Shown here in pieces: positions 35,443 to 52,951 of a DNA stretch of 64,000 bases. The DNA is from a virus. Every line of letters begins with the position of its first letter. The stretch's first letter is position 1. The notes under the pieces were generated by a model. That model ran no database searches and was not told the origin of the DNA. It was given only the letters and a program-made list of their open reading frames with translations. A program made the position numbers and the translations under genes. The stretch covers positions 1 through 64,000 of IMG/VR virus record IMGVR_UViG_3300049215_000223; one strand, given 5' to 3'.

Positions 35443-35634
35443 TTAGGACTCATCGGCTTCGATGAGAGTTTTATTTTCCACTGTATCTAGGGCGATGGCA
35501 TAGCTATTTTCAAGGAAGATATCTCGCCATCTAGAATAGATTTGAACTCTAGTAACGCCTGGATGTTTGGCATTGGAGCAGGTAGAACAATAGCCAATGT
35601 TTACTAGGGTATTTTGGCAGAATGGGCAGATCAT
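35443..35634 (-). CDS. Cys-ribbon array, last member, truncated (63 aa)
   Basis: MICPFCQNTLV...CSTCSNA is the family ribbon (CxxC...CxxC), but the usual C-terminal ITPxNV...TFS part is missing. Translation is coupled to the 35631 gene by ATGA. Confidence 0.6.
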   Translation of the reverse strand: MICPFCQNTLVNIGYCSTCSNAKHPGVTRVQIYSRWRDIFLENSYAIALDTVENKTLIEADES

Positions 35635-35984
35635 GAGAAGGTTAGGATGGTTGCTAGTTTTTGCTCGGCATTTTGGGGAGTGACATTTTGGATGAGATAA
35701 GGGATGTCAAGGATTTTTTTAGCGAAGAACCAGGTTAGTTTTGAGTTATTAGTTTCTGGATTTTTGGTACGAAAGATGATGGTACGATTGCCAGTGAGCC
35801 GCAGATTGAGTTCATACTCGAAGTCTTCCTTTTGGATTTTGAATACAATCTCTTGGAGGTCTTTGTCATGGTAGAATCTAGCTTTGCAAGGTTCGCAATT
35901 CCACCAAGGGGACATGACAGTAGAACAGGCTCCATGGCAGAAGGGACAATAGAATTGGGGCGTTTTGAAGATATTGGGGTCCAT
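35631..35984 (-). CDS. Cys-ribbon array protein (117 aa)
   Basis: CPFCHGAC...WWNCEPC ribbon, beta-rich middle, end NVTPQNAEQKLATILTFS. A complete member that shows the family signature well. Preceded by a 46-nt gap, so it may have its own start signals. Confidence 0.7.
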   Translation of the reverse strand: MDPNIFKTPQFYCPFCHGACSTVMSPWWNCEPCKARFYHDKDLQEIVFKIQKEDFEYELNLRLTGNRTIIFRTKNPETNNSKLTWFFAKKILDIPYLIQNVTPQNAEQKLATILTFS

Positions 35985-36030
35985 GAGGGAGGGTCCGGGC
36001 GAGATCGGAAATTTATGTCGCGTAAATTTA

Positions 36031-36369
36031 TTAAATAAAGGTTCTTAGTTTATAGAATCTATCTGCCCAATCCTTGGCGTTATTTGGATTGATATTTGGA
36101 AGATAGTCTAAGGAGATGAGATGGTCATCTTTGGATCTAGATTTGTTGAGGATGTAAGAAGCGAAGGTATGTTCTTGGATAGCGAGGCAGAGAAGGATAT
36201 TATATTCTGGAGTTTGGACTTCGAATTGAATTAGCCAAGGTTCGATGCCTTCATTTTCGGATGGATCCTTTTTGAACATATACATTATTCTTGAGACAGG
36301 GCAGGCATCACAGACCCAAATGAGTCTGGTAAGTCTATCTGCTTCACACTGACAATATCTGCATTTCAT
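36031..36369 (-). CDS. Cys-ribbon array protein (112 aa)
   Basis: CRYCQCEA...WVCDACP ribbon. The C-terminal signature is degenerate (INPNNAKDWADRFYKLRTFI). Confidence 0.65.
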   Translation of the reverse strand: MKCRYCQCEADRLTRLIWVCDACPVSRIMYMFKKDPSENEGIEPWLIQFEVQTPEYNILLCLAIQEHTFASYILNKSRSKDDHLISLDYLPNINPNNAKDWADRFYKLRTFI

Positions 36370-36692
36370 GAGAATACTGCCAGCTTGAGGAGTTTCAATG
36401 CCAATGCTTCAACTTGTTTAAGATTAATTTCGGCTGGCATTTTGTTAACATTCATTATATGACTTCCAGAATTGGAGTATCTTCCGTCATGAAGAGGTCT
36501 GAAATTATCTTTCAATCCACTTAAACTAGTTGTATTCTTTGCTAGATCGATATCAATTTCATATTATTTATCTTTAAGAATCATATAAAAAGTAATACGA
36601 TTAGGTCTAAACCAAACGCGACATGGGGTGCAGTATTGCGTATCGTGGGTACCAGAGGTAATTTTAGAACAGAATTTGCAAAAAGATATCAT
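36366..36692 (-). pseudogene. Cys-ribbon array gene with in-frame TAA
   Basis: MISFCKFCSKI...CTPCRVWFR runs 42 codons to TAA (36566-36564), then the same frame continues 65 codons to KLLKLAVFS and TGA, overlapping the next ATG. Every family landmark is intact apart from the stop. A recent nonsense mutation, readthrough, or a miscalled base. Confidence 0.75.
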
Positions 36693-36958
36693 GAGAATAA
36701 CACGTAGGTTTTAACTTTTTCAATCATATTTTCGGGCGTGAAGTTTGGCAAGGAATCCATCTGGAACAGCAGCTCTCCATTTGTATATATTTCGCACTTT
36801 TGATCTTCAAAGTTAAGATAAACTTCATATTTGCCTGTAGCTAAAACAACGCCATTGAGTTTGTCTTTTTTACCAAACTGATGGACGACCACGACAGAAT
36901 GGTAATCGCAACAATTACTTACTGGAATGGGAGACTGGCAGTAGTAACATTTTTTCAT
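36689..36958 (-). CDS. Cys-ribbon array protein, short (89 aa)
   Basis: CYYCQSPIPVSNCC ribbon with unusual second pair, end NFTPENMIEKVKTYVLFS. Shortest member with a full signature. Confidence 0.65.
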   Translation of the reverse strand: MKKCYYCQSPIPVSNCCDYHSVVVVHQFGKKDKLNGVVLATGKYEVYLNFEDQKCEIYTNGELLFQMDSLPNFTPENMIEKVKTYVLFS

Positions 36959-37269
36959 GAAAAGGTAACAATAGTTTTAAGTTTGGCGTACAATTTTTCT
37001 GGGGAGTCTAGTTTGAGTTCTTCATTAAGAACTATTGGCATATCTCCAAAATTTTTGGTTTCTTTATTATAATAAAATATATAAGACTTACCATTGTACA
37101 AGTGTAATCTAAAGGGAGGGATGCTACATACTTGTAATTGATTGGTAGTATGTAGAGAATAATGAGATTGCTTGATGAAGGTGTCAGCATCAAAACTAAT
37201 ATGAGTAGGACAGATAAAATCCTCAAGGGCGGCAGGAGTTAGTTCACGTTGGCATAATGGACATTTCAT
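36955..37269 (-). CDS. Cys-ribbon array protein (104 aa)
   Basis: CPLCQREL...FICPTHI: the second half has C and H rather than CxxC. End DSPEKLYAKLKTIVTFS. Confidence 0.65.
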   Translation of the reverse strand: MKCPLCQRELTPAALEDFICPTHISFDADTFIKQSHYSLHTTNQLQVCSIPPFRLHLYNGKSYIFYYNKETKNFGDMPIVLNEELKLDSPEKLYAKLKTIVTFS

Positions 37270-37637
37270 AGGAAGATTAGATAGGTTTTGAGTTTGTGCT
37301 TAGCATTCTCGGGAGTGATTGGAAGGATTTCGTTAGCAATCATTAGAACGTCTACCAGTTTAGCACGGACACGTTGACGTTCAGGAGTATATGGAACTTT
37401 ATAAATCAATAGAGTTTGAGTCGTTTCGAAATCAAATTGAAAATGATAAGTTCCATCCTTAGTAGGATCATTTGTATGAAGGGTGAATTCCACATAAACC
37501 AATTTACCATTATTGTATCTTATAAGCGTGGTACAATGTTTAGTACAAGTTTCACAATACCAAGACTCTGGCTGACGATCCTTAAACATAGGTAAAGGAA
37601 CTGTATGATCAGGGGTTTGGCAGAATGGACAATTCAT
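37266..37637 (-). CDS. Cys-ribbon array protein (123 aa)
   Basis: CPFCQTPD...SWYCETCTKHC, beta-rich middle, end PITPENAKHKLKTYLIFL. ATGA coupling on both sides. Confidence 0.7.
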   Translation of the reverse strand: MNCPFCQTPDHTVPLPMFKDRQPESWYCETCTKHCTTLIRYNNGKLVYVEFTLHTNDPTKDGTYHFQFDFETTQTLLIYKVPYTPERQRVRAKLVDVLMIANEILPITPENAKHKLKTYLIFL

Positions 37638-37935
37638 GAAAAAGTTAGTAGAGTTGGAAGTTTCTTTTCAAAGTTTTGGGGTGATACTCTAGCTCTAAAA
37701 TGATATTATTAATTTTGACATCAGTACTATTGGTAGTTAGTCTAAAGAAAGGCTGATCAAAATAGAAGAAAGAAGCAGTATAGTTCTTATAGTAAAATGA
37801 ATAAGAAGCTATATCATTCATCACTATAGAGAACCAATAGTTAACATTATACTTGGAACAGTGATATCGTATGTATGCTCCATCATTGGTACTGAACATT
37901 TCAGTAATCATTCTTACACAGAAATAGCACTTCAT
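37634..37935 (-). pseudogene. Cys-ribbon array gene with frameshift near its end
   Basis: CYFCVRMI...YHCSKYN opens normally. At the C4 run (37678-37681, GGGG on plus) the frame leaves the family signature. The neighbouring frame reads PQNFEKKLPTLLTFS and overlaps the next ATG. One missing C restores it. Decay or homopolymer miscall. Confidence 0.7.
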
Positions 37936-38270
37936 GCGAATGTTAACAAGGTTTGGAGTTTTTCTTTTACATTTTGCGGATTGACTCCCTGGATTAGTTC
38001 TGAGATTTCCAAGATAGGAGGCTTATACATGTCGAGCCCATTGAAGAGTCCAGTCTCACTATGTAATGCTCTGACTCTAGTTTTATTTTGGGTAAACAGT
38101 AGTTCTATAATATACATGGTGTTGGGTTTTCTGACAGAGAACGACATAGCCTCTAGTGATTCGGGACCTTCTTTAAACTCGACGCAGCATACGGCACATC
38201 TCCACCAATCACCAGGTTGGATGGTTATTTTAATACAGCGCCCGGAGCAGAAATAGCAATAGTAGTTCAT
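37932..38270 (-). CDS. Cys-ribbon array protein (112 aa)
   Basis: CYFCSGRC...WWRCAVCC, end GVNPQNVKEKLQTLLTFA. Typical length and signature. Confidence 0.7.
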   Translation of the reverse strand: MNYYCYFCSGRCIKITIQPGDWWRCAVCCVEFKEGPESLEAMSFSVRKPNTMYIIELLFTQNKTRVRALHSETGLFNGLDMYKPPILEISELIQGVNPQNVKEKLQTLLTFA

Positions 38271-38629
38271 GAAAATGTAATTATTGTTTTGATTCTTTTA
38301 GGAGAGATTAATGTGGAAGTAAGATTATCAAACTGTTGCAGTGGCATATCATAAATCTTGCTATACCCCGAGGCGTCTCGTCTTTCCAACCAAACAGCTG
38401 TATAGTCCATTTCGAAAAAAGAAGTTAACGAAATTATTCTATCATCATAGAAATATGCAACTTCAGCATAAGACATTCCTGTTTTAGGACGAAACTCAAA
38501 CCAAGACTCAGGAATTGAATGTTCTCTAAGTTTACTAACTATTTCTTTATTACAGTAGTATATTTGTTTCTGAGCATCTGAATGATGAAGTTGTAATATA
38601 CTTTGACAGATGGGGCACTTATAACTCAT
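38267..38629 (-). CDS. Cys-ribbon array protein (120 aa)
   Basis: CPICQSIL...YYCNKEI: second Cys pair reduced to one Cys. End STLISPKRIKTIITFS. Confidence 0.65.
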   Translation of the reverse strand: MSYKCPICQSILQLHHSDAQKQIYYCNKEIVSKLREHSIPESWFEFRPKTGMSYAEVAYFYDDRIISLTSFFEMDYTAVWLERRDASGYSKIYDMPLQQFDNLTSTLISPKRIKTIITFS

Positions 38630-38943
38630 AGGAATGTTAGGATAGTTGTGATTTTAGATTCAATATTTTTAGGATTAATATTGGGGGCTGGATTAAAATG
38701 ATGGATGTTCTGACCCTTTTCATCTATCAAATCAGCTTTATCAGCTTCGGGGAAAATATGAAGTATATATTTTTTACCTCTAATAAGAGTCCACAGTTCA
38801 ATAGTATATGCTGTAATTTGTCTATTAACACGAAATGTAGATCGGCAAGACGTACAACCCCAATATATATTATTACCTGACATTTTACCTATTTGGCATC
38901 GGCGCTTACAAAAATAACAAATATAAAATAATGATTCGCTCAT
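38626..38943 (-). CDS. Cys-ribbon array protein (105 aa)
   Basis: CYFCKRRC...WGCTSCRSTF, end NINPKNIESKITTILTFL. Confidence 0.7.
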   Translation of the reverse strand: MSESLFYICYFCKRRCQIGKMSGNNIYWGCTSCRSTFRVNRQITAYTIELWTLIRGKKYILHIFPEADKADLIDEKGQNIHHFNPAPNINPKNIESKITTILTFL

Positions 38944-39251
38944 AGGAAAGTTAAGTACAGTTTAATTTTTTCTTCTACATTGCTTGGAGTAATATTGGGT
39001 GGAATAAATGGAAGACGAACAACCGAATCATGAATATATCCGGGACCACATATTTCAGAGCATTTATACTCTAAGTCTATAACAAAAGAATATCCAGGCT
39101 GATTGCCTTTCTTACCAAGTTTACAATCCATGAATACCCATTTAATAACATCCTGTTCAAGTTGGTATTCTACATTGCAATCGAAGCATTTACGACGAAT
39201 AGCGGAGCCGTAAAACTGTGGGAGCATGTTATTGCAATATAAGCAGTTCAT
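38940..39251 (-). CDS. Cys-ribbon array protein (103 aa)
   Basis: CLYCNNML...RKCFDCNVEY, end NITPSNVEEKIKLYLTFL; a textbook copy of the family ending. Confidence 0.7.
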   Translation of the reverse strand: MNCLYCNNMLPQFYGSAIRRKCFDCNVEYQLEQDVIKWVFMDCKLGKKGNQPGYSFVIDLEYKCSEICGPGYIHDSVVRLPFIPPNITPSNVEEKIKLYLTFL

Positions 39252-39607
39252 AGGAAATAAGCTAGTGTTTGTAGCTTCCTATCTAAATCTTCTAAATTAA
39301 AAATATCTATTTTCTTAGTTGGCAGTTTAATGAGTGTGGAAGCAACGCCGCCATAGCGCTTTAATATTTGTCTGGAATAGATATGAGCTTCGTTAGGGAA
39401 CGAGGAATTTTGGAAGTAAGTGTATACATTAAAATTTTTAGTAGAGAACCGCAAATAACTTAATTCTGGCTCATCAAAAGCATCCTTGAAATACTGCGAG
39501 TATTCAGTTGCACAATACCCACTACAATATTCATAATACAATCTGCCCTGCAAAGGTGGACGATGGATAGCTCCATTACAATAGGGGCAATGAATAAATG
39601 GTTTCAT
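39248..39607 (-). CDS. Cys-ribbon array protein (119 aa)
   Basis: CPYCNGAI...YEYCSGYC, end DIFNLEDLDRKLQTLAYFL; the ITPxN core is replaced by NLED. Confidence 0.65.
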   Translation of the reverse strand: MKPFIHCPYCNGAIHRPPLQGRLYYEYCSGYCATEYSQYFKDAFDEPELSYLRFSTKNFNVYTYFQNSSFPNEAHIYSRQILKRYGGVASTLIKLPTKKIDIFNLEDLDRKLQTLAYFL

Positions 39608-39972
39608 GAGAACGTTAGATAGACAGGTAATTTAGACTCTACATTTTCTGGTGTAATATCGGGGTGAAAGTCTAAGGTAAAAATAGTTTCGCTGGGTTTC
39701 CTATTATCGAATGGAATCTTAGCGATGGAAAATTTGGGGTGAGTTGGATCTAACTTGCCGTGGTAGAAGTTGACACGGTAATTTGTTTCTTTGAAGCGGC
39801 AGATCAAAGATGTCCATGTATAGCTAGTAACATCGCCAAGAGCCATCGCAATAAATTGTACCCTTACTGAACCATGATAATCGCACTGATAGGCAGGAAA
39901 ATTCATTCTTCCCCCAGGTCTATCGTTGGTTGCAGTTTTACGACACTCAGTTTGGCAATATGTACATTTCAT
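39604..39972 (-). CDS. Cys-ribbon array protein (122 aa)
   Basis: CTYCQTEC...YQCDYHG (C and H in the second half), end DITPENVESKLPVYLTFS. Its start lies 1 nt after the stop of 39974, a rare spaced junction. Confidence 0.7.
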   Translation of the reverse strand: MKCTYCQTECRKTATNDRPGGRMNFPAYQCDYHGSVRVQFIAMALGDVTSYTWTSLICRFKETNYRVNFYHGKLDPTHPKFSIAKIPFDNRKPSETIFTLDFHPDITPENVESKLPVYLTFS

Positions 39973-39973
39973 G

Positions 39974-40303
39974 TTAGCTAAATATTAGATAGGTTTTAAT
40001 TTTGTTTTCTATATTTTGAGGAGTGATATGATCTGGTATAAAATTTAGTGAGAAGATTAAATCTCCAAACCACATAGACATAAAATCATCTCTTATCCAT
40101 TCTAGGATTTCAAACTTATTACTTACAATATGTAATCTGGCATCGTAATCTTTATTATTAATAGTTCTTCTAAATAGAATTAAATCATAAACATTATCTT
40201 TCTTTCGAAAGTAACAATTACAAGATTGGCACGTCCAATGTTCTTCCTGAGAAATATTCCACTCATACTGTGTACAAGATGTATTACAATAACTACAGAT
40301 CAT
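39974..40303 (-). CDS. Cys-ribbon array protein (109 aa)
   Basis: CSYCNTSC...HWTCQSCNCYF, end HITPQNIENKIKTYLIFS. Confidence 0.7.
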   Translation of the reverse strand: MICSYCNTSCTQYEWNISQEEHWTCQSCNCYFRKKDNVYDLILFRRTINNKDYDARLHIVSNKFEILEWIRDDFMSMWFGDLIFSLNFIPDHITPQNIENKIKTYLIFS

Positions 40304-40632
40304 GAGAAGTTGATATACGTTCTTATTTTATCGGCAACATTTTGTGGAGTAACACCAATTAAAATATATGGGAATGACACTACAATAATAAGGGTTCCCT
40401 CGGGATCTTCTGGGTAAGCAACTATTCTAGATTCACCACTATCGTACATTAGTTGTAGACTATAAAGATGATTCTTTACCCGTGCATCTAAACAAACAAC
40501 ATTCACGTCGCCATTATAGTGAATTTGATAATGAGCCATACAATCTTCACAATACCACCAATCATCAACTAAATCAGCCTCATCTCTGTCCATGCAGTTT
40601 TTATTGCAAAAACTGCAAATTGGTGTAGTCAT
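40300..40632 (-). CDS. Cys-ribbon array protein (110 aa)
   Basis: CSFCNKNC...WWYCEDCMAHY, end GVTPQNVADKIRTYINFS. Confidence 0.7.
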   Translation of the reverse strand: MTTPICSFCNKNCMDRDEADLVDDWWYCEDCMAHYQIHYNGDVNVVCLDARVKNHLYSLQLMYDSGESRIVAYPEDPEGTLIIVVSFPYILIGVTPQNVADKIRTYINFS

Positions 40633-41069
40633 GTGAACACCGTCAGATTCATAAGACGGTTGAATAGTTTCTGCGCTTCTGTGTGCATATCATTGTCAGT
40701 TGAGATTGGTATAAATTTGACGCTAATAATAGGGGATACGAGATTTTTAGCCGTCCAGCTTGAAGGGATCATGTACCCATCCATCGTACTGAACGAAGGG
40801 CTAGCTTTCCCTGTAAGTTGATGTATTCTAGTACATTGTTTGCCTTCCATAGCAAACCAATTATTTTTAACTTTGAAAGGCAGATGGTAATTCCAGCACT
40901 GCCACCTTTCACTCTCACGGACCAAGACTCCCATATGAGGAGTGTACGCTACTTTACGGGCTGGGCAATCAATGTTCCAGCAATGCAAGTCCATGCGTTT
41001 AGTTGTTTCATTAAACTTATTTATCTCACTGCGATTATACATTACTGAGAAACAAGATGGACAGTTCAT
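40629..41069 (-). CDS. Cys-ribbon array protein, longer (146 aa)
   Basis: CPSCFSVM...LHCWNIDC, a larger middle, end AQKLFNRLMNLTVFT. Longest of the short subfamily, with a divergent tail. Confidence 0.65.
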   Translation of the reverse strand: MNCPSCFSVMYNRSEINKFNETTKRMDLHCWNIDCPARKVAYTPHMGVLVRESERWQCWNYHLPFKVKNNWFAMEGKQCTRIHQLTGKASPSFSTMDGYMIPSSWTAKNLVSPIISVKFIPISTDNDMHTEAQKLFNRLMNLTVFT

Positions 41070-41434
41070 AGGAAGACCTTTAGATTCAAAATTCTTCTAA
41101 CCAAATTCTCATAGAAAGAAATGTCATCGGCAACTGGGTAAAATTGATTATCAAGTGTTATGCATTGATTTGCGCTCTGCCCTGGTTGCCATATTTCTGA
41201 ATAAGACCAACCATCATTATAACTAGTGAAATCATAGCTTTTGCCATCTACTACAATATTAATTTCATAGTCATTAATACGCTGGCTAGGATATTCTGCA
41301 AATCCCCAGAATCTAGTATTCTCTCCATCATCTAGACAGTAAGGGTTTTGACATTCCACTTCATAATACCTAGGACCTCCCTTAGGCTCTCGTTCTTTGA
41401 ATGTAAGTGGAGTTAGGCAGACGGGGCAGTTCAT
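41066..41434 (-). CDS. Cys-ribbon array protein (122 aa)
   Basis: CPVCLTPL...VECQNPYC, end ISFYENLVRRILNLKVFL. Ending resembles that of the 40629 gene, so these two may be recent sisters. Confidence 0.65.
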   Translation of the reverse strand: MNCPVCLTPLTFKEREPKGGPRYYEVECQNPYCLDDGENTRFWGFAEYPSQRINDYEINIVVDGKSYDFTSYNDGWSYSEIWQPGQSANQCITLDNQFYPVADDISFYENLVRRILNLKVFL

Positions 41435-41775
41435 AGGAAAGTTAGTATAGTTGATAGTTTATGTACGACGTTGGATGGAGTGACGTTGGGAATGGTAGGC
41501 AACTCAAGCACGACTCTTTGAGTAAATTGTGCATCATCTGCTTGTAAAATTTCAGTGATACGACATTCCTGACCAGGATATAACAATTGAACTGAATATC
41601 TATTGTTACTTATTGATACTGCCAAACAAATCATACTTAGTTCTTGAGTCTTAACATCTACAGTATGACGAACCATAACTGGACATTTATGACATTTCCA
41701 AACCTCAAGAAATTGGGACAGATTGTCTTCTAGTTGTGCCAGCTCGCATGGTTGTTGGCAGAAGTGACAGTTCAC
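41431..41775 (-). CDS. Cys-ribbon array protein (114 aa)
   Basis: CHFCQQPC...WKCHKCPVMV, end NVTPSNVVHKLSTILTFL. The start may be GTG/ATG at the overlap with the 41772 stop. Confidence 0.7.
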   Translation of the reverse strand: MNCHFCQQPCELAQLEDNLSQFLEVWKCHKCPVMVRHTVDVKTQELSMICLAVSISNNRYSVQLLYPGQECRITEILQADDAQFTQRVVLELPTIPNVTPSNVVHKLSTILTFL

Positions 41776-42173
41776 GAGAACACCAGTAGCATTCTTATTT
41801 TAGCCTCAACATTCTGTGGCGTCATCTCAGGAAAGATATCTCCCTTGTCAGCATCAAACTGCCTAATGCACTGTAAGTCCTTATTGACTTTCTCACCAGG
41901 AATACCGGGATCTCCGATATACCAGAGCGAAGCAATCTTCCTATCAGGAGTGCAGCTCCATCGATACGTCTCTCCATTAATTTTGGTATAGAGATTGATT
42001 CCGCTTATATTTCCGCTTTGATAATGTAGATATTCAGATTGACAATGATGACAAAAATAAACGCTCATACCATATCTACTTACTTCTTCTAATGGAGCAT
42101 ATGGCGCGGGGCGTCCGCAGAACTTACATGGTTTAGGTAAATGATGCTTTTGAAACTGATTATCATCACTCAT
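41772..42173 (-). CDS. Cys-ribbon array protein (133 aa)
   Basis: A polar N-terminal extension of about 15 residues, then CKFCGRPA...YFCHHCQSEY, end EMTPQNVEAKIRMLLVFS. Confidence 0.7.
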   Translation of the reverse strand: MSDDNQFQKHHLPKPCKFCGRPAPYAPLEEVSRYGMSVYFCHHCQSEYLHYQSGNISGINLYTKINGETYRWSCTPDRKIASLWYIGDPGIPGEKVNKDLQCIRQFDADKGDIFPEMTPQNVEAKIRMLLVFS

Positions 42174-42538
42174 AGGAATATCATTAATTTTTGAAGTCTG
42201 TCCAATAGATTTTCAGAAGTATCAGCTTTAATCCGAGAGGTTTGTATCACAAACTTCCAGGCATTCATCATGGTCTTGTTTGCATATTGGTCATGAATTT
42301 TATAAACTCTAGATTTTGATTCATTTCCAAAATTATCTATTGCATATGGAAGGACATACATATGCTGGATAGCCGCGCGATTATCCGACTCCACTTCATA
42401 GTGATTGATTTCGTGAACGTTGGTAGCCCCTTGCAACTCAACTTTGGTAGGACAAAAGTATACGTTGACTTTTGCCACCTGACGGTACTGTAATACTTTA
42501 CCGCACAGTGGACAGGTCCTAATTTCAAAATTAATCAT
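42170..42538 (-). CDS. Cys-ribbon array protein (122 aa)
   Basis: CPLCGKVL...YFCPTKV, end SENLLDRLQKLMIFL. I prefer ATG 42538 over 42556 because the promoter at 42562-42590 would start transcription near 42555. Confidence 0.6.
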   Translation of the reverse strand: MINFEIRTCPLCGKVLQYRQVAKVNVYFCPTKVELQGATNVHEINHYEVESDNRAAIQHMYVLPYAIDNFGNESKSRVYKIHDQYANKTMMNAWKFVIQTSRIKADTSENLLDRLQKLMIFL

Positions 42539-42561
42539 AGCTGGGGAGGGCTCCATCCTAT

Positions 42562-42593: not shown

Positions 42594-42965
42594 TCACGAG
42601 AACACTAAGTACATCTTTATGCGGTTAACAACCTCTTGTGTATCGTGCCAAGGCAAATAGAGTGCCTTCTCCAACGTTATAAGATGTTTTTCAAATTGAT
42701 TGGGTCCTTCTAACCCATCTCTCCAGTCTGTAGTGCAAATTCTTGTTTTCTTGGCATCTTCAGTATCCCACATGGTTATGTCATATGGTCCAACTTCTAG
42801 AGAGAATATCTCTGGATTATTATTATATGGATTAACCCAAACAGAAGCATGACTAATGTTAACCATAATTTCCAAATCTTCTATCCAAGTTTGTTTTTTA
42901 GGGCATTGGAGAATTTCTTTATTGAAAGTAACTTCCATTAAATTATTACAAATAGGACAATTCAT
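42594..42965 (-). CDS. Cys-ribbon array protein (123 aa)
   Basis: CPICNNLM...LQCPKKQ, end HDTQEVVNRIKMYLVFS. Its stop is followed by the internal promoter rather than an overlapping gene. Confidence 0.7.
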   Translation of the reverse strand: MNCPICNNLMEVTFNKEILQCPKKQTWIEDLEIMVNISHASVWVNPYNNNPEIFSLEVGPYDITMWDTEDAKKTRICTTDWRDGLEGPNQFEKHLITLEKALYLPWHDTQEVVNRIKMYLVFS

Positions 42966-43291
42966 GAGAACAACATTAGGGTATCTAGTTTATCTTCCAT
43001 CAAATCAAGATTCTTAAAATCAGTTTTAAGAACTCTGTCAATTTTAACTGCATCGTATAACAAACAATAATCTAATTTATAAACAATAGTGTGTAAATCA
43101 TCATAGTTTATTCTAACGTAATACTTACCCAACATAAATTCTTGTCTAGATATTGTGGTTGGATAGTTATTATAGATTGCTATAAAGCGAGCCATATCAC
43201 TCACAGCACAGCCTGATGCCGTACACCAATACGCAGTGTCATTTAGGGCTTGATGAGACATCAGCTTTGCAGCGCAGAAGGGACAATTCAT
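42962..43291 (-). CDS. Cys-ribbon array protein (109 aa)
   Basis: Start 43291 overlaps the TGA of the GIY-YIG gene (ATGA). CPFCAAKL...YWCTASGC, end LDLMEDKLDTLMLFS. Confidence 0.7.
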   Translation of the reverse strand: MNCPFCAAKLMSHQALNDTAYWCTASGCAVSDMARFIAIYNNYPTTISRQEFMLGKYYVRINYDDLHTIVYKLDYCLLYDAVKIDRVLKTDFKNLDLMEDKLDTLMLFS

Positions 43292-45125: not shown

Positions 45126-45454
45126 GAAAATGTTATGTAAGTTTTTAACTTTTTAATCAAATGTTTATAATCAGAGAAATCAGGTTCAAAATATGGCAAG
45201 TGCTGACCTTCTGTCTTACTAGTATTTCTAATCTCTAGATCTTTAATAAGCGGAGACCATATTACTATTACTCCATGTGTTAATGGAATTGATACCAATG
45301 ATAATTCATCATATGAGTCCATCAGAGAAATATAGTATATTTTGTGATCTAATTTATTGGTACATTCTTTCTGTAAGCAATTACTTTTTTCGGAACCTAA
45401 AAATGAATTGCACAATGGTTCTTTACAGATTGGACAGTTGATTGGCATTTTCAT
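45122..45454 (-). CDS. Cys-ribbon array protein (110 aa)
   Basis: CPICKEPLC...CLQKEC, end SDYKHLIKKLKTYITFS. Possible second start at 45448. Divergent from the plus gene at 45518 across a 63-bp gap containing a TATACAT/ATGTATA inverted repeat. Confidence 0.7.
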   Translation of the reverse strand: MKMPINCPICKEPLCNSFLGSEKSNCLQKECTNKLDHKIYYISLMDSYDELSLVSIPLTHGVIVIWSPLIKDLEIRNTSKTEGQHLPYFEPDFSDYKHLIKKLKTYITFS

Positions 45455-45517: not shown

Positions 45518-45943
45518 ATGAGTGTAGTTAGAAGTAAATTAGAACATAGAACGATACTAGATTTTAGCAAGGGCAAGTTATCCAAGAATTTAGTTAAGAA
45601 CTCGCTGCGACAAGTGGATGTACTAGATTGTGTGTCAGCTCCTGGAGTTCATAAACTGATTGTCAACAGAATAAAAGTTGGCATGTATATGATTCAATTA
45701 TGGTTTTCAGATAGAGACACTTCTAGAAATAGAAGAAAATTAAAAGAGTATGGGAAGTTCAATATTCATATTTATGAAGAATGCGCTTCTGGAGATTACA
45801 GATTGATTAGATTAAACCGTGATGTTAGATTTAATAACCAGTACTGGGCATCACTTAATAAAAAGTCAGGCTTAATGGCTAACTCTCTCACTGATGCAAT
45901 TGTTCATTGTAATAGACTCAGTCGTTTAAAAGCATTCTTATGA
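45518..45943 (+). CDS. AFL-tail protein (141 aa)
   Basis: A beta-rich middle (KVGMYMIQLWFSDRD), then SGDYRLIRLNRDVRFNNQYW and an end NRLSRLKAFL. The 50199 protein has the same order (VGEFIIRIEEY, MTYRKNFHQD, LKRMTAFL), so the two are related. Function unknown. Overlaps the converging array gene by 6 nt. Confidence 0.55.
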   Translation: MSVVRSKLEHRTILDFSKGKLSKNLVKNSLRQVDVLDCVSAPGVHKLIVNRIKVGMYMIQLWFSDRDTSRNRRKLKEYGKFNIHIYEECASGDYRLIRLNRDVRFNNQYWASLNKKSGLMANSLTDAIVHCNRLSRLKAFL

Positions 45944-46591
45944 AAACATATTGTATATTTTTATCTTATTGATTAGCTGCTCTTTATTGTGAGTATTGGT
46001 TAGATTAACGGCAGGAACACTCAAGTCCATGAGGTCCTCTAGTTTCTGTGTAAAATCAGCGCGGAATATTCTAGATGTGCCAGTGGTAAAGTCCGTGTTA
46101 ATATGGAAGAAAGAGTTATCTAAGCTGAACCCAGCAAACTCACGAAACATCCAACAATTGTAAGTACCATCATCATTAATATTCAGTGCAAATGAATAGA
46201 AGCAAATCTTCTTCTTCAAATTATCAATAGAAGAAAAAACAGATGGCGTATGACTCGTTGCTGCCATAGTCATATTGCTGCTACTGAGACTAGGAGCTGG
46301 AGTACTTGGTTTTATAAGTCGAGTGTCTATATCGTAATTGCAAACGGGACAAGTTTTGCACACAATAAATGGTTTGGCATAAATAGACCAAAATCGGTCA
46401 CCAAGTTCATAGGTGCCATCAAACTTGAAGTTAGCATATACTCTACCCTTAGGTTTGTCTTTGAGGCGGATGCGTAGTTCGTCTGGACTAACGGACAAGC
46501 TCATTCCCACTAACTCTGCACTACCAACAATCATTGGTCGTTGACAGATCAGACACTTATTACGATAGTTTAATAGCTCTTGTAAATTCAT
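45938..46591 (-). CDS. Long Cys-ribbon array protein (217 aa)
   Basis: LQELLNYRNKCLICQRPM...CKTCPVCNYD, then a second beta domain, end KEQLINKIKIYNMFS. Twice the length of the short members, with an LxxLLxYRxxC lead shared by the other long ones. Confidence 0.65.
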   Translation of the reverse strand: MNLQELLNYRNKCLICQRPMIVGSAELVGMSLSVSPDELRIRLKDKPKGRVYANFKFDGTYELGDRFWSIYAKPFIVCKTCPVCNYDIDTRLIKPSTPAPSLSSSNMTMAATSHTPSVFSSIDNLKKKICFYSFALNINDDGTYNCWMFREFAGFSLDNSFFHINTDFTTGTSRIFRADFTQKLEDLMDLSVPAVNLTNTHNKEQLINKIKIYNMFS

Positions 46592-47202
46592 GAAAATATC
46601 AAGTAAGTTTTCATCTTGGTGAGAAAATGTTCCTTGTTCCTAAACCTATATCGTGGTAGCAACGGAAGTACGATTGAACCAATAGAATCAGCTCCCCAAT
46701 TATTTTCTAGACTATAATCTTTTTTACCATATGTCAAGGCGCTTTTATTTTCTTTAAAACTAGATGCCATCACATACCAATTGATATTATCACTACAAGA
46801 TAATACTTCATTCTCAATAGGGAATGAGTAAATAAATTCTTTAGTTAAATCAAATCGTAAACACTCACTTTTAATATAAGTAAGACAGCTGCAAAAAGAT
46901 TCTATCCAAATATCATTCTCTGTTAAAAATTTTAATAATCTGGGCTCATCATTTGTTTTAAACTTATTGGTCTTATGAAATATTTTAAGTTTGAGAGTCT
47001 TTTTGTAAGTAATTCTTAAATTCATTTCTACATACTCTGGTGTTACCAGAGGAGTTATCTCTACATTTTTTTCTTCATCAGATTTAGATCCTCTTCCTGT
47101 AGTAATTGATTTTCTAGTTACTATTTTAATAGTAACCGCTTCGCCACAACTGAAACAGGGATTATTATAAGTAATAAAATCTTTAACAGTAAATTTTTTC
47201 AT
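46588..47202 (-). CDS. Long Cys-ribbon array protein (204 aa)
   Basis: VKDFITYNNPCFSCGEA...SFCSCLTYI, end KEHFLTKMKTYLIFS. TAATG overlap with prfB upstream: the release-factor gene sits inside the array transcript. Confidence 0.65.
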   Translation of the reverse strand: MKKFTVKDFITYNNPCFSCGEAVTIKIVTRKSITTGRGSKSDEEKNVEITPLVTPEYVEMNLRITYKKTLKLKIFHKTNKFKTNDEPRLLKFLTENDIWIESFCSCLTYIKSECLRFDLTKEFIYSFPIENEVLSCSDNINWYVMASSFKENKSALTYGKKDYSLENNWGADSIGSIVLPLLPRYRFRNKEHFLTKMKTYLIFS

Positions 47203-48296
47203 TATTCTAATTTACTCTTTGTATGAAGAAACGAAACAATGAACCCATGTAAGTTCCCATTAAGCACATCATCGGCATCCCTAATCTCATGTTCAGTACG
47301 ATGATCTTTAACAAGTTGATAAGGAGAAAGCGTGTATGTACGCATTTGATTACCAAAAGCATTTTCTGATTGTGATAAGAAGTATTTTTCTTTTTCGGAC
47401 ATTTGCTTCTTCAGTTCTATGTCATACAACTTAGCTTTAAGCATTTTTAGAGCCGTTCGTTTGTTAGCGTGAAAGTCTCTTTCCGTTCTAACGAAGATAT
47501 GTATACCACTAGGAAAATGCTTTAATCTAACTGCCGAACTTACCTTGTTCTGGTTTTGACCTCCAGGTCCACCAGAAGTTTGAGCTGTTATTTCCATATC
47601 TTTATCATTTATCTTTATGTCAATTGTGTCTTCAATGTCAGGCACAACAGCCACAGCGGCAAAAGAGGTATGTCGAGCGTCGCCAGAGTTAAAAGGAGAG
47701 TTACGGATCAGTCTATGAACTCCAGCTTCTCCCTTAAAGAAACCATATGCATAAGGACCATCTATCCTTAGAGATACAGAATCGGTACAGATGCCGCCAT
47801 GCTCTTCAGATGGCTTCATGTCTAATATCTCTAGTTTGAATTTATAACTATCTGCATAGCGAGAATACATACGGAGCAGCATAGTAACCCAATTGGCTGC
47901 CTCCAAGCCTCCTGCGCCTGCGCTGATGGTCAAAATGGCAGGGTTGTTATCTGTAGGATCATTCATCATTTCTTGAAACTCAATTCTGGACAGAATCTCT
48001 TCTACCAAACTGATTTCAGGAATCATAGCCTCTGTTTCTTTAGGCATGGTATTCAGGCACTCTTGAAAGAAAGATACCTGCTCTTTGAGGTATGCCAACT
48101 GCTCTAACAAATCGGATAGCTTCTGCCTTTCCTTCATAAGATCGGCAGCTTCTTTAGGATTGTCCCAAAAGTTAGGGTTGTTGACGAGACTATCTATTTG
48201 TTCCAATCGCAATGTGTGCTGATTGACTGGAACCATTTTTTCCAGGGATTTTATTTTGCCCTGGCAGGATTCAATTAATTGTATTATAGTTTTCAT
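47202..48296 (-). CDS. prfB: Peptide chain release factor 2
   Basis: A 364-aa, full-length class-1 release factor that terminates translation at UGA and UAA. N-terminal helical domain; the SPF codon-recognition tripeptide is in LIRNSPFNSGDARHTSF; the catalytic GGQ is in SGGPGGQNQNK. The C-terminal YQLVKDHRT stretch is typical. SPF, rather than PxT, marks RF2. Unlike most bacterial prfB there is no internal UGA frameshift. It is coupled by overlaps to array genes on both sides, whose stop codons are mostly UGA. Confidence 0.93.
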   Translation of the reverse strand: MKTIIQLIESCQGKIKSLEKMVPVNQHTLRLEQIDSLVNNPNFWDNPKEAADLMKERQKLSDLLEQLAYLKEQVSFFQECLNTMPKETEAMIPEISLVEEILSRIEFQEMMNDPTDNNPAILTISAGAGGLEAANWVTMLLRMYSRYADSYKFKLEILDMKPSEEHGGICTDSVSLRIDGPYAYGFFKGEAGVHRLIRNSPFNSGDARHTSFAAVAVVPDIEDTIDIKINDKDMEITAQTSGGPGGQNQNKVSSAVRLKHFPSGIHIFVRTERDFHANKRTALKMLKAKLYDIELKKQMSEKEKYFLSQSENAFGNQMRTYTLSPYQLVKDHRTEHEIRDADDVLNGNLHGFIVSFLHTKSKLE

Positions 48297-48916
48297 GAGA
48301 AGGTAACCAAAGTTTTTATGCGTGTAATTATCTTATCTCTACCCATACCCTCTAGATTCATAATCTTTGTTCTAAGGGGTTCGGTGTTCGCATTATCGCG
48401 GAGGTAAATGTTGGTAGAGTTAAAGATCCAGTCATTCTGAACCCAGAGATTGTCTACCACAAAACTCTCCATATATAGTCGAACACTTCTAATTTTCCAA
48501 ACTGAAGGTTCGTTCGGTACTGAGTCACATCTAAAGTTATCGCTAGAGATACAGTAATTTAAACCACATGATCTACTGGGGCAGTATAGCTCAATGTGTG
48601 GTCCCAAATTTTCGAATGTCTCTTGTACCAAAAAGCAATCTAGTATTTCAGTACTGCGATCTTCTTTATTTAAAAGATCGAACTTAACGAGATTAGTTCT
48701 AATGTCTATTTCTACATTAGCCTCTAACTCAAAGCCCGGCGTCGTATGCTTCATGTGAAATTGGAATTTACCATCTTTTTCCTTGGACTTTATAATAGGA
48801 ACATCATTGGAAGAACGGCTGAAATTGATGAATATTATTTCCAATTTGCCACCACAGAAGACGCAACTTTCTTTTATCTTAAAGAAGTCTTCTATGCTGT
48901 CAAAATAACATTTCAT
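48293..48916 (-). CDS. Long Cys-ribbon array protein (207 aa)
   Basis: IEDFFKIKESCVFCGGKL with a later LYCPSRSCGLNYC pair, end GRDKIITRIKTLVTFS. ATGA-coupled to prfB. Confidence 0.65.
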   Translation of the reverse strand: MKCYFDSIEDFFKIKESCVFCGGKLEIIFINFSRSSNDVPIIKSKEKDGKFQFHMKHTTPGFELEANVEIDIRTNLVKFDLLNKEDRSTEILDCFLVQETFENLGPHIELYCPSRSCGLNYCISSDNFRCDSVPNEPSVWKIRSVRLYMESFVVDNLWVQNDWIFNSTNIYLRDNANTEPLRTKIMNLEGMGRDKIITRIKTLVTFS

Positions 48917-49518
48917 ACAAAAACTAATAGCCTCTTTATCCTACTCAATGCTTCTTGTGGATTTTTGAGATCCATAGGAATCAATGGAATATATTCGTCA
49001 TTAATGGATCCGTCAACTAAGTGTGCAGTGTAATGAGTTTGTTTGGTTGAATAAATACTAGTGATTTCATACAAGATTCCGTTTTCTTCTAAACTAACTC
49101 TTTCTGAGTTTAATAAAACTTTAGTTAATTTCTTATCAGTTAAATCAATACATATTTGCCAAGTACATGAAAATAAGAAACACTGTTCACATTCTGCTCT
49201 TAGACCCTGATATAAAGTCCCAGAGCGGGGAAGAGGGTTAGGATTAGATGCTATAATTCCCTTAACCCTCCCGCCTGTATACATATGCCGTGTAACTTCC
49301 CTACCGTAAACCTCTATTTTAATTTCGTTGGTATGTGGGTCGATAGTTAAAATATCCTCATTGTTTCCGCCAGACAAGTAAAAAGATATTTTTTGTTTGC
49401 CTCCCTGCCACACAAAATCTTCTACCATAAACTCATTGTTAAAAGTAAGCGTGGAGTCACAGAATGGGCAGTATTTGTGATATTCTAGCGCTTGCTTGAT
49501 GTCAGTGAAAGATATCAT
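48913..49518 (-). CDS. Long Cys-ribbon array protein (201 aa)
   Basis: ITDIKQAL-type lead, CPFCDSTL...ECEQCFLFSC, end PQEALSRIKRLLVFV. ATGA overlap with the kinase-like gene upstream. Confidence 0.65.
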   Translation of the reverse strand: MISFTDIKQALEYHKYCPFCDSTLTFNNEFMVEDFVWQGGKQKISFYLSGGNNEDILTIDPHTNEIKIEVYGREVTRHMYTGGRVKGIIASNPNPLPRSGTLYQGLRAECEQCFLFSCTWQICIDLTDKKLTKVLLNSERVSLEENGILYEITSIYSTKQTHYTAHLVDGSINDEYIPLIPMDLKNPQEALSRIKRLLVFV

Positions 49519-50156
49519 GAGGATGACGAGTCGTAATATTCATCGAACACTTCTTCGGTAAGTCCTGCGTCAATCAAAATAGGACGACCATCTTTGGTTC
49601 CCCAGGAAGATATCCTAGCAATGTCTCCTGCCAGTAAATCAAATTTTTCGCCTAGACGTTTCATTTCTTTATAAACCTCTGAGTCGGCAACCTTATCAAA
49701 TCCTTTAGGCTTTTCTGAGGTGGACTTCAAACCATATCTAAGAGCCTCACCAAAATCATCAAAATCTAGCCCAGTCATCTCTTTGAAATCTTTGGTAGTT
49801 ATCTTGTCTAAATAGTGTGTTTCTAGCCAGGAGTGATTCTTTGCGCAACTGATGATTTCATTGATGAACTTGGACTTCATCTTAGGGTTGCATTCCACTT
49901 CGTTTTGAGCAATTCCTTTGTCATTCTTAGCCATTTTAACAACTGTCTTATCAGGTGTCAAATACACAATTCTGGAGGAGCCAGAGGATAAGTGCTCTAA
50001 GTTTTTCTCAGCATATTCCTTGCGGGCGGTATACGTTTCCAGCCCTTCCAAGTTCTTTAGGATTGTCTTTAGATCCTTAGAATCGGCAGGCAGCTCTTCG
50101 CTTTCGGCTAGCGATTGGAAGAAATGGGCTAATTTGAGCAACTTATTGATATCCAT
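49515..50156 (-). CDS. Protein kinase-like protein
   Basis: Start 50156. HLSSGSSRIVYLTPDKTVVKMA looks like kinase strands 1-3 with the Lys, AQNEVE like the helix-C Glu, and GRPILIDAGLTEEV like the DxG metal loop. The HRD loop is not clear, so catalysis is uncertain. The N-terminus INKLLKLAHFFQSLA is shared in style with 44352 and 53656. About 213 aa. Confidence 0.55.
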   Translation of the reverse strand: MDINKLLKLAHFFQSLAESEELPADSKDLKTILKNLEGLETYTARKEYAEKNLEHLSSGSSRIVYLTPDKTVVKMAKNDKGIAQNEVECNPKMKSKFINEIISCAKNHSWLETHYLDKITTKDFKEMTGLDFDDFGEALRYGLKSTSEKPKGFDKVADSEVYKEMKRLGEKFDLLAGDIARISSWGTKDGRPILIDAGLTEEVFDEYYDSSSS

Positions 50157-50198
50157 ACGATAATGCAAACTTAGTAATATTACGTTATATTTTAGAAT

Positions 50199-50741
50199 AT
50201 GAACAATGTATCTAAGGAAGAATACCTAAGACTTATTGAAGAATATGTCAATGACCAATATGGTGATAATGATGGCGATGAAACAACCTTAGACGTTGGA
50301 GCATTTGAAGGGGGATGGATCCCCGCCGATCCACCTGCCAAAGAAAGAATGAAAAATGCTCTAGGTGGGGGCAGTAGCTGCATTGATTTAACCACCGCTA
50401 AGAAAGATAAGATTTCAGACGCACTTTACAAATATCACAATATAAAGGTTGGGGAATTCATTATTAGAATTGAAGAATATCACGGCAGACCTGGTAAAAC
50501 TGGTAAGACTGTTAACCTAACAATGGACGTTTCAGTATGGGAAGAAGTATACAGGACCCCATCTGGTACCCCTTGTAAAATGACATATCGTAAGAATTTC
50601 CACCAAGATAATAAATTTGACAAACGACCTTGGCTAAACTACTTTAGTAATAGTGGAGATGCTCATAACATCCCAGCAGATACAGTAGTTGATGTTATTA
50701 GATGGATGCAAGCTCTTAAGAGAATGACTGCGTTTCTTTAA
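50199..50741 (+). CDS. AFL-tail protein (180 aa)
   Basis: Acidic N-terminal third, Gly-rich turn (NALGGGSSCID), then the same beta-rich order as the 45518 protein and an end LKRMTAFL. Convergent 4-nt overlap with the array gene at 50738. Confidence 0.55.
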   Translation: MNNVSKEEYLRLIEEYVNDQYGDNDGDETTLDVGAFEGGWIPADPPAKERMKNALGGGSSCIDLTTAKKDKISDALYKYHNIKVGEFIIRIEEYHGRPGKTGKTVNLTMDVSVWEEVYRTPSGTPCKMTYRKNFHQDNKFDKRPWLNYFSNSGDAHNIPADTVVDVIRWMQALKRMTAFL

Positions 50742-51379
50742 GAGAACAATATTAATTTTTCTAATCTTTTCAAAGTCTCATCATGAGATGTAAATGGAAT
50801 TAAACCTGTATGCAAATGATTAGTTAATTCATCAGTTATATATTTATTTTCTCTCAAAGATTTAACTTTACCATAATTAATAAAAGTTTCCTTGGATTTA
50901 TAGTATGTTACCATGCTGTATACTTTATAGCCACCTAACATTGCTGGCTTAATTAGCCAACATTGTTCAGTGTGAACTGATAATTCTCCAATAGAGCAAT
51001 TTTTATAATCAAAATTCAAAGGGTTAGTTGCATAATTATATCTTTCACAACTATTACAGTGTTTGTAAATCTTATAACCAGCCAAATTTTCATCTAAACT
51101 TTTGAATCGATCCATTAGAAATCGTGGAGATACATCCTCATATCTAATTTCATCGTGAGTAAAAAATTCTATTCTAAGAGAGTTGTCATCGAATCCAAAA
51201 GAATAACCAACCTTGTAGTGCTTCTGCTTTTTGGTCAAACCATCTAACGGAAACAGAATCAACATACGATTATCTTCAAACCTAATTTTTTGTCTTCTGT
51301 TAGAGTGAAATGCAATGTTCAATGGGTTTTGACAGATAGGGCACTCTTTTTTATAATCAAGGAATTCGCGTAGTTTCAT
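50738..51379 (-). CDS. Long Cys-ribbon array protein (213 aa)
   Basis: LREFLDYKKECPICQNPL...KHCNSCERYNYAT, end DETLKRLEKLILFS. ATGA overlap with the lipoprotein gene upstream. Confidence 0.7.
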   Translation of the reverse strand: MKLREFLDYKKECPICQNPLNIAFHSNRRQKIRFEDNRMLILFPLDGLTKKQKHYKVGYSFGFDDNSLRIEFFTHDEIRYEDVSPRFLMDRFKSLDENLAGYKIYKHCNSCERYNYATNPLNFDYKNCSIGELSVHTEQCWLIKPAMLGGYKVYSMVTYYKSKETFINYGKVKSLRENKYITDELTNHLHTGLIPFTSHDETLKRLEKLILFS

Positions 51380-52206
51380 GGGATAGTCTTACAGCATCTA
51401 AAACCGGTATCATAATAGGAAAATGTGGGTCCATGACCATCTGTTCGGGGGCTGCAACGATTTCTAACGCCATGTGGGTGTCCACCCTTAAATACAGATA
51501 CATAAGGTGTGCCGCCTGATGAAACTGCCCACTCATCGGCATTCCCCGTCATATCATATACTCCATATGGTGAGATACAGTTTGGCATTGAACCGGAAGG
51601 AACAGTTTTATCTAGTTGCTCAAAGGTATGTGTTGCTGGGTCTTGCCAAGGTAAATCTATACGGCAAGCATTGGTATCACGAACATACCCATAAGGGTAT
51701 GGAAGATCACTTGGACCTCGACAAGCTTGCGTCCATTCTGTATCTACACAGAGACGTTTACCTTCTGATTCACAAGTCGCTTTAGCTTGATTCCAAGTAG
51801 TTTGCAATTGAGGTTTACTTCCTAATTTATTTGGATATTCGTATTTATCAATACAAAAATTCATGTGTCTAGTCTGACCTTTACAGACCGTTGGCTTCTG
51901 GAACTCCCCGCACCTCATCGGAGAACTCCACTCTTCACAAGTACCAGCATCGTCTTTCTTTACACAAAGAGGAGCATCTAGCCATTTGAGGCAAATCTCT
52001 TCTAGATTTATGCAATATTCTCCGGTTATTTGAACCATATCAGATGGGCAGGTAGATACTGGTTGCACCACAACATCATCTAATGTCAGATCTATAGGGC
52101 TAGAATCTTTTGTTATTGTCTGTGCTCCAATCCGAGATGAAAATTTCTCCGTAGCACAACTCGTTAAAACCAACAAAACTAAAATACAAATACTACTGCG
52201 TCTCAT
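51376..52206 (-). CDS. FGE/SUMF1-like lipoprotein
   Basis: Start 52206 after GAGG. Signal peptide with lipobox VLTSC, then a 240-aa formylglycine-generating-enzyme-type domain: CIDKYEYPN near the start, GKRLCVDTEWTQACRG, PYGVYDMTGNADEW, KGGHPHGVRNRC and GFRCC at the end. These are the family landmarks; whether it oxidises a Cys or only keeps the fold is unknown. Lipid-anchored outside the cytoplasm. Shares the array transcript. Confidence 0.75.
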   Translation of the reverse strand: MRRSSICILVLLVLTSCATEKFSSRIGAQTITKDSSPIDLTLDDVVVQPVSTCPSDMVQITGEYCINLEEICLKWLDAPLCVKKDDAGTCEEWSSPMRCGEFQKPTVCKGQTRHMNFCIDKYEYPNKLGSKPQLQTTWNQAKATCESEGKRLCVDTEWTQACRGPSDLPYPYGYVRDTNACRIDLPWQDPATHTFEQLDKTVPSGSMPNCISPYGVYDMTGNADEWAVSSGGTPYVSVFKGGHPHGVRNRCSPRTDGHGPTFSYYDTGFRCCKTIP

Positions 52207-52252
52207 GCAACCTCGCACCCATATAATATAGCCACAGTGGGGCGAAGTGCAA

Positions 52253-52951
52253 CTAAGAAAACAATAACAGCGTCTTGAGTTTATTCAGTAAAAATTCATG
52301 CTCCAGAGGATACCTTAAAAATTTCTCCGAATTCATTTGTATAACTTGCTGCGTCCCCAAGATGTAGGGTGGCATTGGCATATTGTAAGTAATGCTAGTA
52401 GTCTCTGTTGCAAAATCAGTTTTGAAATAATACTTCATTCTCATACCATTGAGAATGAAGTATTCCGATATAAGAGTAATTGGTTTTAGCTGCATCATGT
52501 CCATGTCAAAAATAATAGGTCCTGTAGATAATTGGTATCTGTACTGACAGCTGGAATGATGGGAGCACTGCAATCTTAGATTGATATTGAATCCAGTTTG
52601 TAACTGTTGAGTAAAGTGTCTCTTAACAAAATCATCCGGTGATGTACTGTATTCCGTGACTGTAGAGACTCCACCCGTTTCATAATATTCAGACTTAATA
52701 CTACAGGACGGATCTTTTAAGTTAGCAAGTATAAGAAAATATACCTGTCCTGATGGAGAAAGACGAGATTCCAAACAGCATGGGAAGGCTACCTGATCTC
52801 CCCCTTTAACTAACTTATAAGCACTCATTGGCTTGATAACAGTATAATCATCATCCATATGAATACCATGATTGAATACGATGGATAAAGGATTACCGCA
52901 TAGACAATTAGTCCTGAAGTTGAAGAGCTGCTCAAATGTCGCAAGTTGCAT
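52253..52951 (-). CDS. Long Cys-ribbon array protein, first of the array (232 aa)
   Basis: FEQLFNFRTNCLCGNPL (one Cys of the first pair shifted), later LQCSHHSSCQY, end HEFLLNKLKTLLLFS. No array gene lies upstream; a terminator at 53016-53060 separates it from the next gene. Confidence 0.65.
   Translation of the reverse strand: MQLATFEQLFNFRTNCLCGNPLSIVFNHGIHMDDDYTVIKPMSAYKLVKGGDQVAFPCCLESRLSPSGQVYFLILANLKDPSCSIKSEYYETGGVSTVTEYSTSPDDFVKRHFTQQLQTGFNINLRLQCSHHSSCQYRYQLSTGPIIFDMDMMQLKPITLISEYFILNGMRMKYYFKTDFATETTSITYNMPMPPYILGTQQVIQMNSEKFLRYPLEHEFLLNKLKTLLLFS

Follow-up and report, generated by a model that had tools for sequence, protein, structure and literature searches.

Why would a large phage keep about thirty small, related genes side by side on one strand, and what might the proteins made from so many copies do? 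The question is raised by IMG/VR virus record IMGVR_UViG_3300049215_000223, of which the first 64 kb of 178,722 bases (the window) were analysed, and in which the minus strand between positions 35443 and 52951 carries an array of paralogous genes for proteins with a cysteine ribbon. Our results show that, in a lineage of large phages, tandem duplication built this family up into a single operon with translational coupling. We regard the family and its genetic organization as new, although the biochemical function could be of a known kind. For that function we tentatively favour soluble adaptors for host takeover, each with a target of its own and all with a common C-terminal docking helix.

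The initial annotation had counted about 32 paralogous genes, 26 short and six long, and an ORF check confirms the minus-strand open reading frames (ORFs) over this interval. The total holds, and so do the six long genes. Only 25 of the short genes are readable (one truncated, one frameshifted), giving 31 readable members, and the 26th is a copy with an in-frame TAA at about 36370–36688 that is absent from the ORF list and whose translation matches the family profile with E = 6.7e-12. With this broken copy the members number 32. All-against-all BLASTP between members gives E values as low as 8e-18, and an iterated profile search recovers 31 members in the window. The truncated member (35443–35634) stops before the sheet described below, and in the frameshifted member (37645–37935) the tail SPQNFEKKLPTLLTFS is found in another frame, near the 3′ end. 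Four-base stop/start overlaps of the ATGA type form 22 of the 34 junctions in the array. Shine–Dalgarno-like sequences are nearly absent before members (10/169) and uncommon before other genes with an upstream gap (80/447, four phages). No signal peptides or membrane segments are apparent in the members by eye.

Because the diverse short family has too few conserved stretches, relatives were located by DNA junction patterns and ortholog alignments. The junction pattern K-[LI]...F-[SL]-stop/ATG-[KN]-C..C had no match in 100 shuffles of the window; it matched IMG/VR contigs of up to 481 kb, in which profile searches found arrays. Most contigs matched by a second junction pattern alone carry no family member. 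In all, arrays or fragments were seen in about 15 IMG/VR contigs besides the window (8–481 kb). Two pairs of these are near-identical (L083/L085 and L105/L106, 99.96–99.99%), and one contig, of 62,556 bases, holds a more distant array of 7–9 members. Copies per array range from about 10 to 36 in the stretches read, some of which are cut. Two ortholog queries run against 84,980 prokaryote genomes found no relative, in scans that need conserved stretches and may miss distant relatives, and a single-protein scan with 41431–41775 gave no match. Pfam, PHROGs, NCBIfam, PADLOC, PDB sequences and a cultured-phage collection yielded no convincing family match; in PHROGs v4 at E < 1e-3 no entry was matched by several members, and single members gave single weak matches. 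As the initial annotation had supposed, no comparable phage locus with so many tandem paralogs was found in the open-access full-text literature, searched with narrow terms.

Members share cysteine knuckles throughout the family, with C3, C6, C28 and F113 invariant across 23 aligned short members. The ribbon had been described as CxxC...CxxC, but its second knuckle often departs from that form: by regular expression, the second knuckle among 179 short proteins is CxxC in 78, CxxH in 18, another Cys/His spacing in 26 and one Cys in 56, so that a complete CxxC or CxxH knuckle is present in about half. From these residues, members presumably bind zinc. Long members consist of a short-type protein with an insertion of about 80 amino acids (aa) that separates the two knuckles, and an N-terminal helix.

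AlphaFold2 models were made of the short member 41431–41775, from 78 aligned members, and of the long member 46588–47202, from 32 sequences. In the short model (mean predicted local distance difference test score, pLDDT, 89.3) the knuckles are followed by antiparallel strands at residues 48–55, 58–65, 70–80 and 83–92 and then by a helix at 103–113, which is the C-terminal signature. The long model (pLDDT 84.5) has strands within 129–180, a helix at 190–203 and its second knuckle about 85 residues past the first. Short and long profiles match over the last strands and the helix (E 1.1e-8). The models thus predict one core fold, consisting of a ribbon, a four-stranded sheet and a C-terminal helix, for the short and the long member, which supports the fixed scaffold that had been proposed and speaks against the concern that the folds might be unrelated. 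A fold search of the PDB with both models gave no significant match. In BFVD, uncharacterised metagenomic phage proteins of the same fold were found (five at E 3.5e-5 to 6.3e-4), among them A0A6J5RHY3 and A0A6J5RGY3 (‘uncultured Caudovirales phage’), with template modelling (TM) scores of 0.66–0.80 for the four best and a probability of 1.00. Many of the matches bear neighbouring accessions, as though from one source. Judged by predicted structure, these proteins very probably belong to the ribbon family; they carry no annotation or description, and we have not seen the array organization reported for them.

The C-terminal end of the family is locked in position. The residue at −2 is F in 91% of 167 members scored, and exactly one residue follows the F in 211 of the 214 members that have F within the last eight residues. 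Between phages, family pairs at 20–40% identity have flush ends in 529 of 541 cases (98%; the pairs are not independent), as against 3/22 (14%) at 20–40% and 59/121 (49%) at 40–60% identity for other orthologs of four of these phages. The measure uses cross-phage pairs, paralog alignments within the window being too rough for it. Proteins outside the family also carry the tail: 18 of 1338 other small proteins of these phages score at least 8 bits for it, compared with 0.24 expected from internal 9-mers, although a few of the 18 are missed ribbons. Two tail families encoded on the plus strand (50199–50741 and 45518–45943), aligned from nine and seven phages, are homologous to each other (E 1.8e-8). 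Their homology to the ribbons was considered and rejected, since hhalign finds no relation for either family. MORN-like repeat proteins and others end in [NK][LM]KAF[WL], and distal ribbons of phage L105 end in LKAFL, MKAFI and similar sequences; the two tail forms therefore grade into each other.

Comparison between phages separates two parts of the array. Proximal genes form ortholog groups, by reciprocal best hits, in a fixed order across 11 phages: long genes, the release factor 2 (RF2) gene, a long gene, then short genes. Distal genes are mostly lineage-specific and without orthologs, and signs of turnover include a recent duplicate pair in L084 (73% identity) and the broken copies in the window. 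Ordered orthologs at one end and orphan, duplicated and broken genes at the other indicate an old core with a turnover zone, so that the distal end is a zone of gene birth and decay. Identities over ribbon, middle and tail are 58, 57 and 67% between orthologs of a first phage pair and 50, 46 and 65% in a second, compared with 28, 21 and 34% between window paralogs, whose alignments are rough at this level. The middles, said in the initial annotation hardly to resemble each other, are thus unlike between paralogs but conserved between orthologs. Nonsynonymous divergence (dN) between orthologs is 0.13–0.76 and synonymous divergence (dS) at least 1.6 and mostly saturated, which places dN/dS well below 1 and permits no exact value. 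Middles about as conserved as ribbons, together with low dN, point to ancient specialized paralogs under purifying selection, and the strong diversification of a binding surface that had been proposed is supported only in the sense of old paralog divergence.

The features of the locus are as follows, in order of transcription of the array; the basis of each assignment is given in parentheses.

53031–53060, minus: intrinsic terminator-like hairpin, 12 pairs and a T-tail, just upstream of the array (hairpin scan)
52253–52951, minus: long member at the upstream end of the array, 232 aa (long profile E 4e-39; reciprocal best hit with the gene that opens the V77 array)
51376–52218, minus: lipoprotein with FGE-sulfatase-like domain, in the operon, not a family member (Pfam PF03781 E 7.7e-16)
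50738–51379, minus: long member, 213 aa, ortholog group in 9 phages (profile, reciprocal best hits)
50199–50741, plus: non-ribbon protein of a second family, tail ..LKRMTAFL, with orthologs known from at least 9 phages; overlaps 50738–51379 at the two convergent stops (alignment)
49515–50168, minus: conserved PHROG-4301 protein, function unknown, N-terminal NKLLKLAxFFxSLA motif (E 1.6e-12; kinase-like N-lobe by eye)
48913–49518, minus: long member, 201 aa (profile, ortholog groups)
48293–48916, minus: long member, 207 aa (profile, ortholog groups)
47202–48296, minus: peptide chain release factor 2, GGQ and SPF motifs (PF03462 E 8.6e-47, PF00472 E 3.9e-30)
46588–47202, minus: long member, 204 aa, orthologs in 11 phages (AlphaFold model above)
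45938–46591, minus: long member, 217 aa (profile, ortholog groups)
45518–45943, plus: non-ribbon protein with tail ..LSRLKAFL, homologous to 50199–50741 (profile comparison)
45122–45454, minus: short member, 110 aa, ortholog group in 11 phages (profile, ortholog groups)
44736–45125, minus: short member, 129 aa (profile)
44313–44747, plus: gene without confident family (ORF, Pfam)
43914–44279, minus: short member, 121 aa, orthologs in at least 9 phages at 42–64% identity (ortholog searches)
43288–43914, minus: GIY-YIG/NUMOD3 homing endonuclease inserted in the array (Pfam PF01541 E 8.8e-13, PF07460)
42962–43297, minus: short member, Met start probably at 43291 (profile)
42594–42965, minus: short member, 123 aa (profile)
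42170–42556, minus: short member, 128 aa (profile)
41772–42173, minus: short member, 133 aa (profile)
41431–41775, minus: short member, 114 aa (profile; AlphaFold model above)
41066–41434, minus: short member, 122 aa (profile)
40629–41069, minus: short member, 146 aa (profile)
40300–40632, minus: short member, 110 aa (profile)
39974–40303, minus: short member, 109 aa, non-overlapping stop, tail retained (profile)
39604–39972, minus: short member, 122 aa (profile)
39248–39607, minus: short member, 119 aa (profile)
38940–39251, minus: short member, 103 aa (profile)
38626–38943, minus: short member, 105 aa (profile)
38267–38629, minus: short member, 120 aa (profile)
37932–38270, minus: short member, 112 aa (profile)
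37645–37935, minus: short member, frameshifted near the 3′ end (tail motif in another frame)
37266–37637, minus: short member, 123 aa (profile)
36955–37269, minus: short member, 104 aa (profile)
36689–36958, minus: short member, 89 aa (profile)
36370–36688, minus: broken member, one in-frame TAA (profile, as above)
36031–36369, minus: short member, 112 aa (profile)
35631–35984, minus: short member, 117 aa (profile)
35443–35634, minus: last member, truncated to its ribbon, 63 aa (a terminator-like hairpin at 35449–35466 overlaps its end)

Non-family genes within the array are therefore the homing endonuclease, RF2, the PHROG-4301 protein, the FGE-like lipoprotein and three plus-strand genes. 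The neighbours of the array are genes of nucleotide metabolism, not virion genes: dUTPase and exonuclease were identified with Pfam, and thymidylate synthase and dihydrofolate reductase by sequence. Numbers of sigma-70-like sites and terminators across the region are at chance level, from which the 12-pair hairpin before the array stands out, and a search for promoter k-mers upstream of genes gave nothing clear.

What might the members do? Of the readings considered, the adaptor reading seems to us the most plausible, and we hold it tentatively. The members would be soluble intracellular proteins made for host takeover. The sheet and knuckle surface of each would bind a different host or phage target, and through the constant C-terminal helix every member would dock onto a shared partner, or members would dock onto one another, giving a single machine many target specificities. 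Constant takeover functions might fall to the proximal set and host-specific ones to the distal set. Middles conserved between orthologs and not between paralogs are expected if each paralog has a fixed, different target. The common fold, the collinear order, the position-locked end, the tail on other proteins and the metabolism-gene context also speak for adaptors. Several points weigh on the other side. The docking partner and the targets are hypothetical, and host takeover is proposed from gene context. Conserved middles could also be those of enzymes or structural subunits. The AlphaFold prediction stays confident up to the final residue (pLDDT about 96), and the helix may belong to the core of the predicted fold, in which case the tail would be no docking signal. 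Non-ribbon tail proteins may, from their sequences, share the sheet-plus-helix fold, which would make the sharing of the tail less surprising. The fixed position of the end favours a docking end, whereas the high-confidence predicted helix allows a part of a shared fold.

One candidate partner was dropped. Sliding-clamp binding is suggested by [LM]-x-[AVLT]-F, but in the 481-kb relative, which encodes its own DNA polymerase III, the alpha subunit has the C-terminus DLDDENEDD, without the tail, and a search for a beta-clamp C-terminal domain found none. A TubZ/PhuZ-like tubulin is also encoded by the phage (PF00091 E 2.9e-14); the sites noted for the tubulin and the alpha subunit are L032:15795–17159 and G003:209057–209812. 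Nor did five records yield a phage-encoded RNA polymerase that could serve as a target.

A wider form of the docking idea is possible, though on the unlikely side: a modular system in which zinc-ribbons and some unrelated proteins would share an F-x-COOH tail read by one phage or host hub. An RDxKLxxLGI tail in the 642-kb uncultured phage LR756502 would then be an independent invention of the same principle. In positions 592000–641900 of LR756502.1 (L097), at least 33 of 100 called ORFs end near [RK][DN]xKLxx[LI]GI/IL; these proteins are mostly small and mutually unlike and lie mainly at 30400–49600 of L097 on the minus strand, and MKYLKxFxE-like sequences stand at the start of further proteins. 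Shared terminal motifs occur independently in this phage, and a constraint from ribosome-binding sites or overlap DNA may underlie them.

We regard as unlikely, yet worth weighing, that the members form a nucleic-acid- or ribosome-binding set, in which ribbon and PUR-like domains would bind RNA or single-stranded DNA with individual preferences and, together with RF2, redirect translation or transcription. Among the leading PDB fold matches of the short model, PUR-alpha repeats are the one family that recurs (Foldseek best E 0.085, TM 0.28–0.34), and like the short member they have four antiparallel strands followed by a helix. This similarity is not significant, and PUR-alpha is not among the top PDB fold matches of the long model; the Pfam matches listed include no PUR family, and the PDB profile search gave none either. 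To our knowledge, PUR proteins carry no ribbon. The ribbon half resembles Elf1, RPB9, L37Ae and L44e-type ribbons, similarities that are weak and scattered.

The RF2 gene lies between long genes in relatives too, with a full ORF containing GGQ confirmed by motif in L024 and L028, and 47202–48296 has the PCRF and RF-1 domains in addition to both motifs. This constant position is consistent with a role in translation, but is no proof of a function shared with the ribbons. Lak megaphages are likewise large phages that encode RF2, and the best Lak match has 35% identity. Lak phages are reported to use an alternative genetic code (PMC8346664). Here, unlike in Lak, the standard code fits: an alternative code as the cause of RF2 is not indicated, TAG, TGA and TAA all occurring at gene ends, with TAG rare. 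TGA ends 120 of 169 array members across phages, and other genes use TAA more often.

It is doubtful that the members are packaged in the virion and injected, with the constant end as a head-targeting signal and the variable part acting in the host. The T4 internal proteins IPI, IPII and IPIII, together with Alt, follow such a logic, being small divergent proteins with one short constant end, as in the array, and IPI inhibits a restriction enzyme (PMC9026906). Their first 10 residues suffice for capsid targeting (PMC9026906). However, T4 has three internal proteins whose N-terminal signal is removed by proteolysis, whereas the array has more than 30 members with zinc-ribbon knuckles and a fixed end that is C-terminal, within a confidently predicted helix. 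No N-terminal cleaved capsid targeting sequence is seen in the members, which start with a CxxC knuckle or with a short helix before one. The array does not lie among virion genes, and injection has no positive support. A better candidate for head targeting is carried by other proteins: the amphipathic N-terminal motif [DN]xLLKxAxxFExLA(xYGDRxxFLxALAQ) occurs on unlike proteins (window 53144–53656 and 49515–50168, with orthologs in relatives) and recalls the T4 capsid targeting sequence. One bearer has a possible peptidoglycan-binding domain.

Improbable in our view is a heteromeric assembly, a large intracellular structure in which every paralog would occupy a separate position and which the C-terminal helix would hold together. 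The proximal order, the individual conservation in 11 phages and the constant helix with its fixed end would suit such a structure; a copy number varying between about 10 and 36, and distal turnover, fit badly with fixed places in one particle.

There is a small chance that the array records an ongoing arms race, in which positive selection would be diversifying the middle surface of decoy or anti-defence proteins. Paralog middles at 21% identity, lineage-specific distal copies, the duplicate pair and the broken copies would be expected from such a conflict. Lar/RalR (PF14354), a restriction-alleviation family, is also a small phage-type protein that starts with a CPxC knuckle, as members do, and is the named family that the most ribbons match, weakly: four of 78 members, best E 0.0023, in an alignment scan. 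Only the ribbon could match; we know of no sheet or C-terminal helix in Lar. With 78 proteins scanned, single PADLOC or Lar matches at E about 1e-3 come close to what chance would give. Comparison between phages lends no support to ongoing diversifying selection on the middles, since ortholog middles are conserved about like ribbons and dN is well below dS, and an arms race is already unlikely for the proximal half.

The initial annotation raised the caveat that constraint on the overlap DNA might alone account for the end motif, and the 4-base overlaps, with a last codon NNA shared with the next start, would suit that reading. It is refuted for the F and the helix: the overlap fixes the last base at most, F at −2 is kept with varied codons by 43 of the 51 members whose stop overlaps no start, and convergent and isolated genes also bear the tail. 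Such a constraint may add to the Ser/Leu preference at the last residue.

Some further observations concern the setting of the arrays. In the window, positions 1–34000 have a G+C content of 0.43–0.53 with a steady negative GC skew, and the array about 0.35–0.38. Composition shifts abruptly at the distal end of the array, and by eye the style of the genes changes in a comparable way beyond the array in L021, L082 and L087. Lipoprotein-like genes lie in or at the end of arrays in several phages, with trypsin-like, metalloprotease, FGE-like and (by eye) papain-like domains (window 33967–34743, 34700–35383 and 51376–52218; L028:8789–9457; L084:14042–16211). GIY-YIG-type homing endonuclease genes have entered arrays repeatedly, as confirmed with Pfam in the window (43288–43914) and by sequence elsewhere (L028:13237–14013; L029:1–617; L081:6221–6958 and 13700–14461).

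Many of the short proteins encoded by large phages have no known purpose, and this locus offers a family with a predicted fold, a conserved order and a sharp terminal feature. It also marks a limit of reading by eye, in that strongly different paralogs need not imply an arms race. The questions that it opens are testable: which common partner, if any, reads the F-x-COOH end, and what the targets of individual members are. If such tails are a general device, of which LR756502 would hold a second one, the unknown proteins of huge phages could be sorted into working groups by sequence alone.

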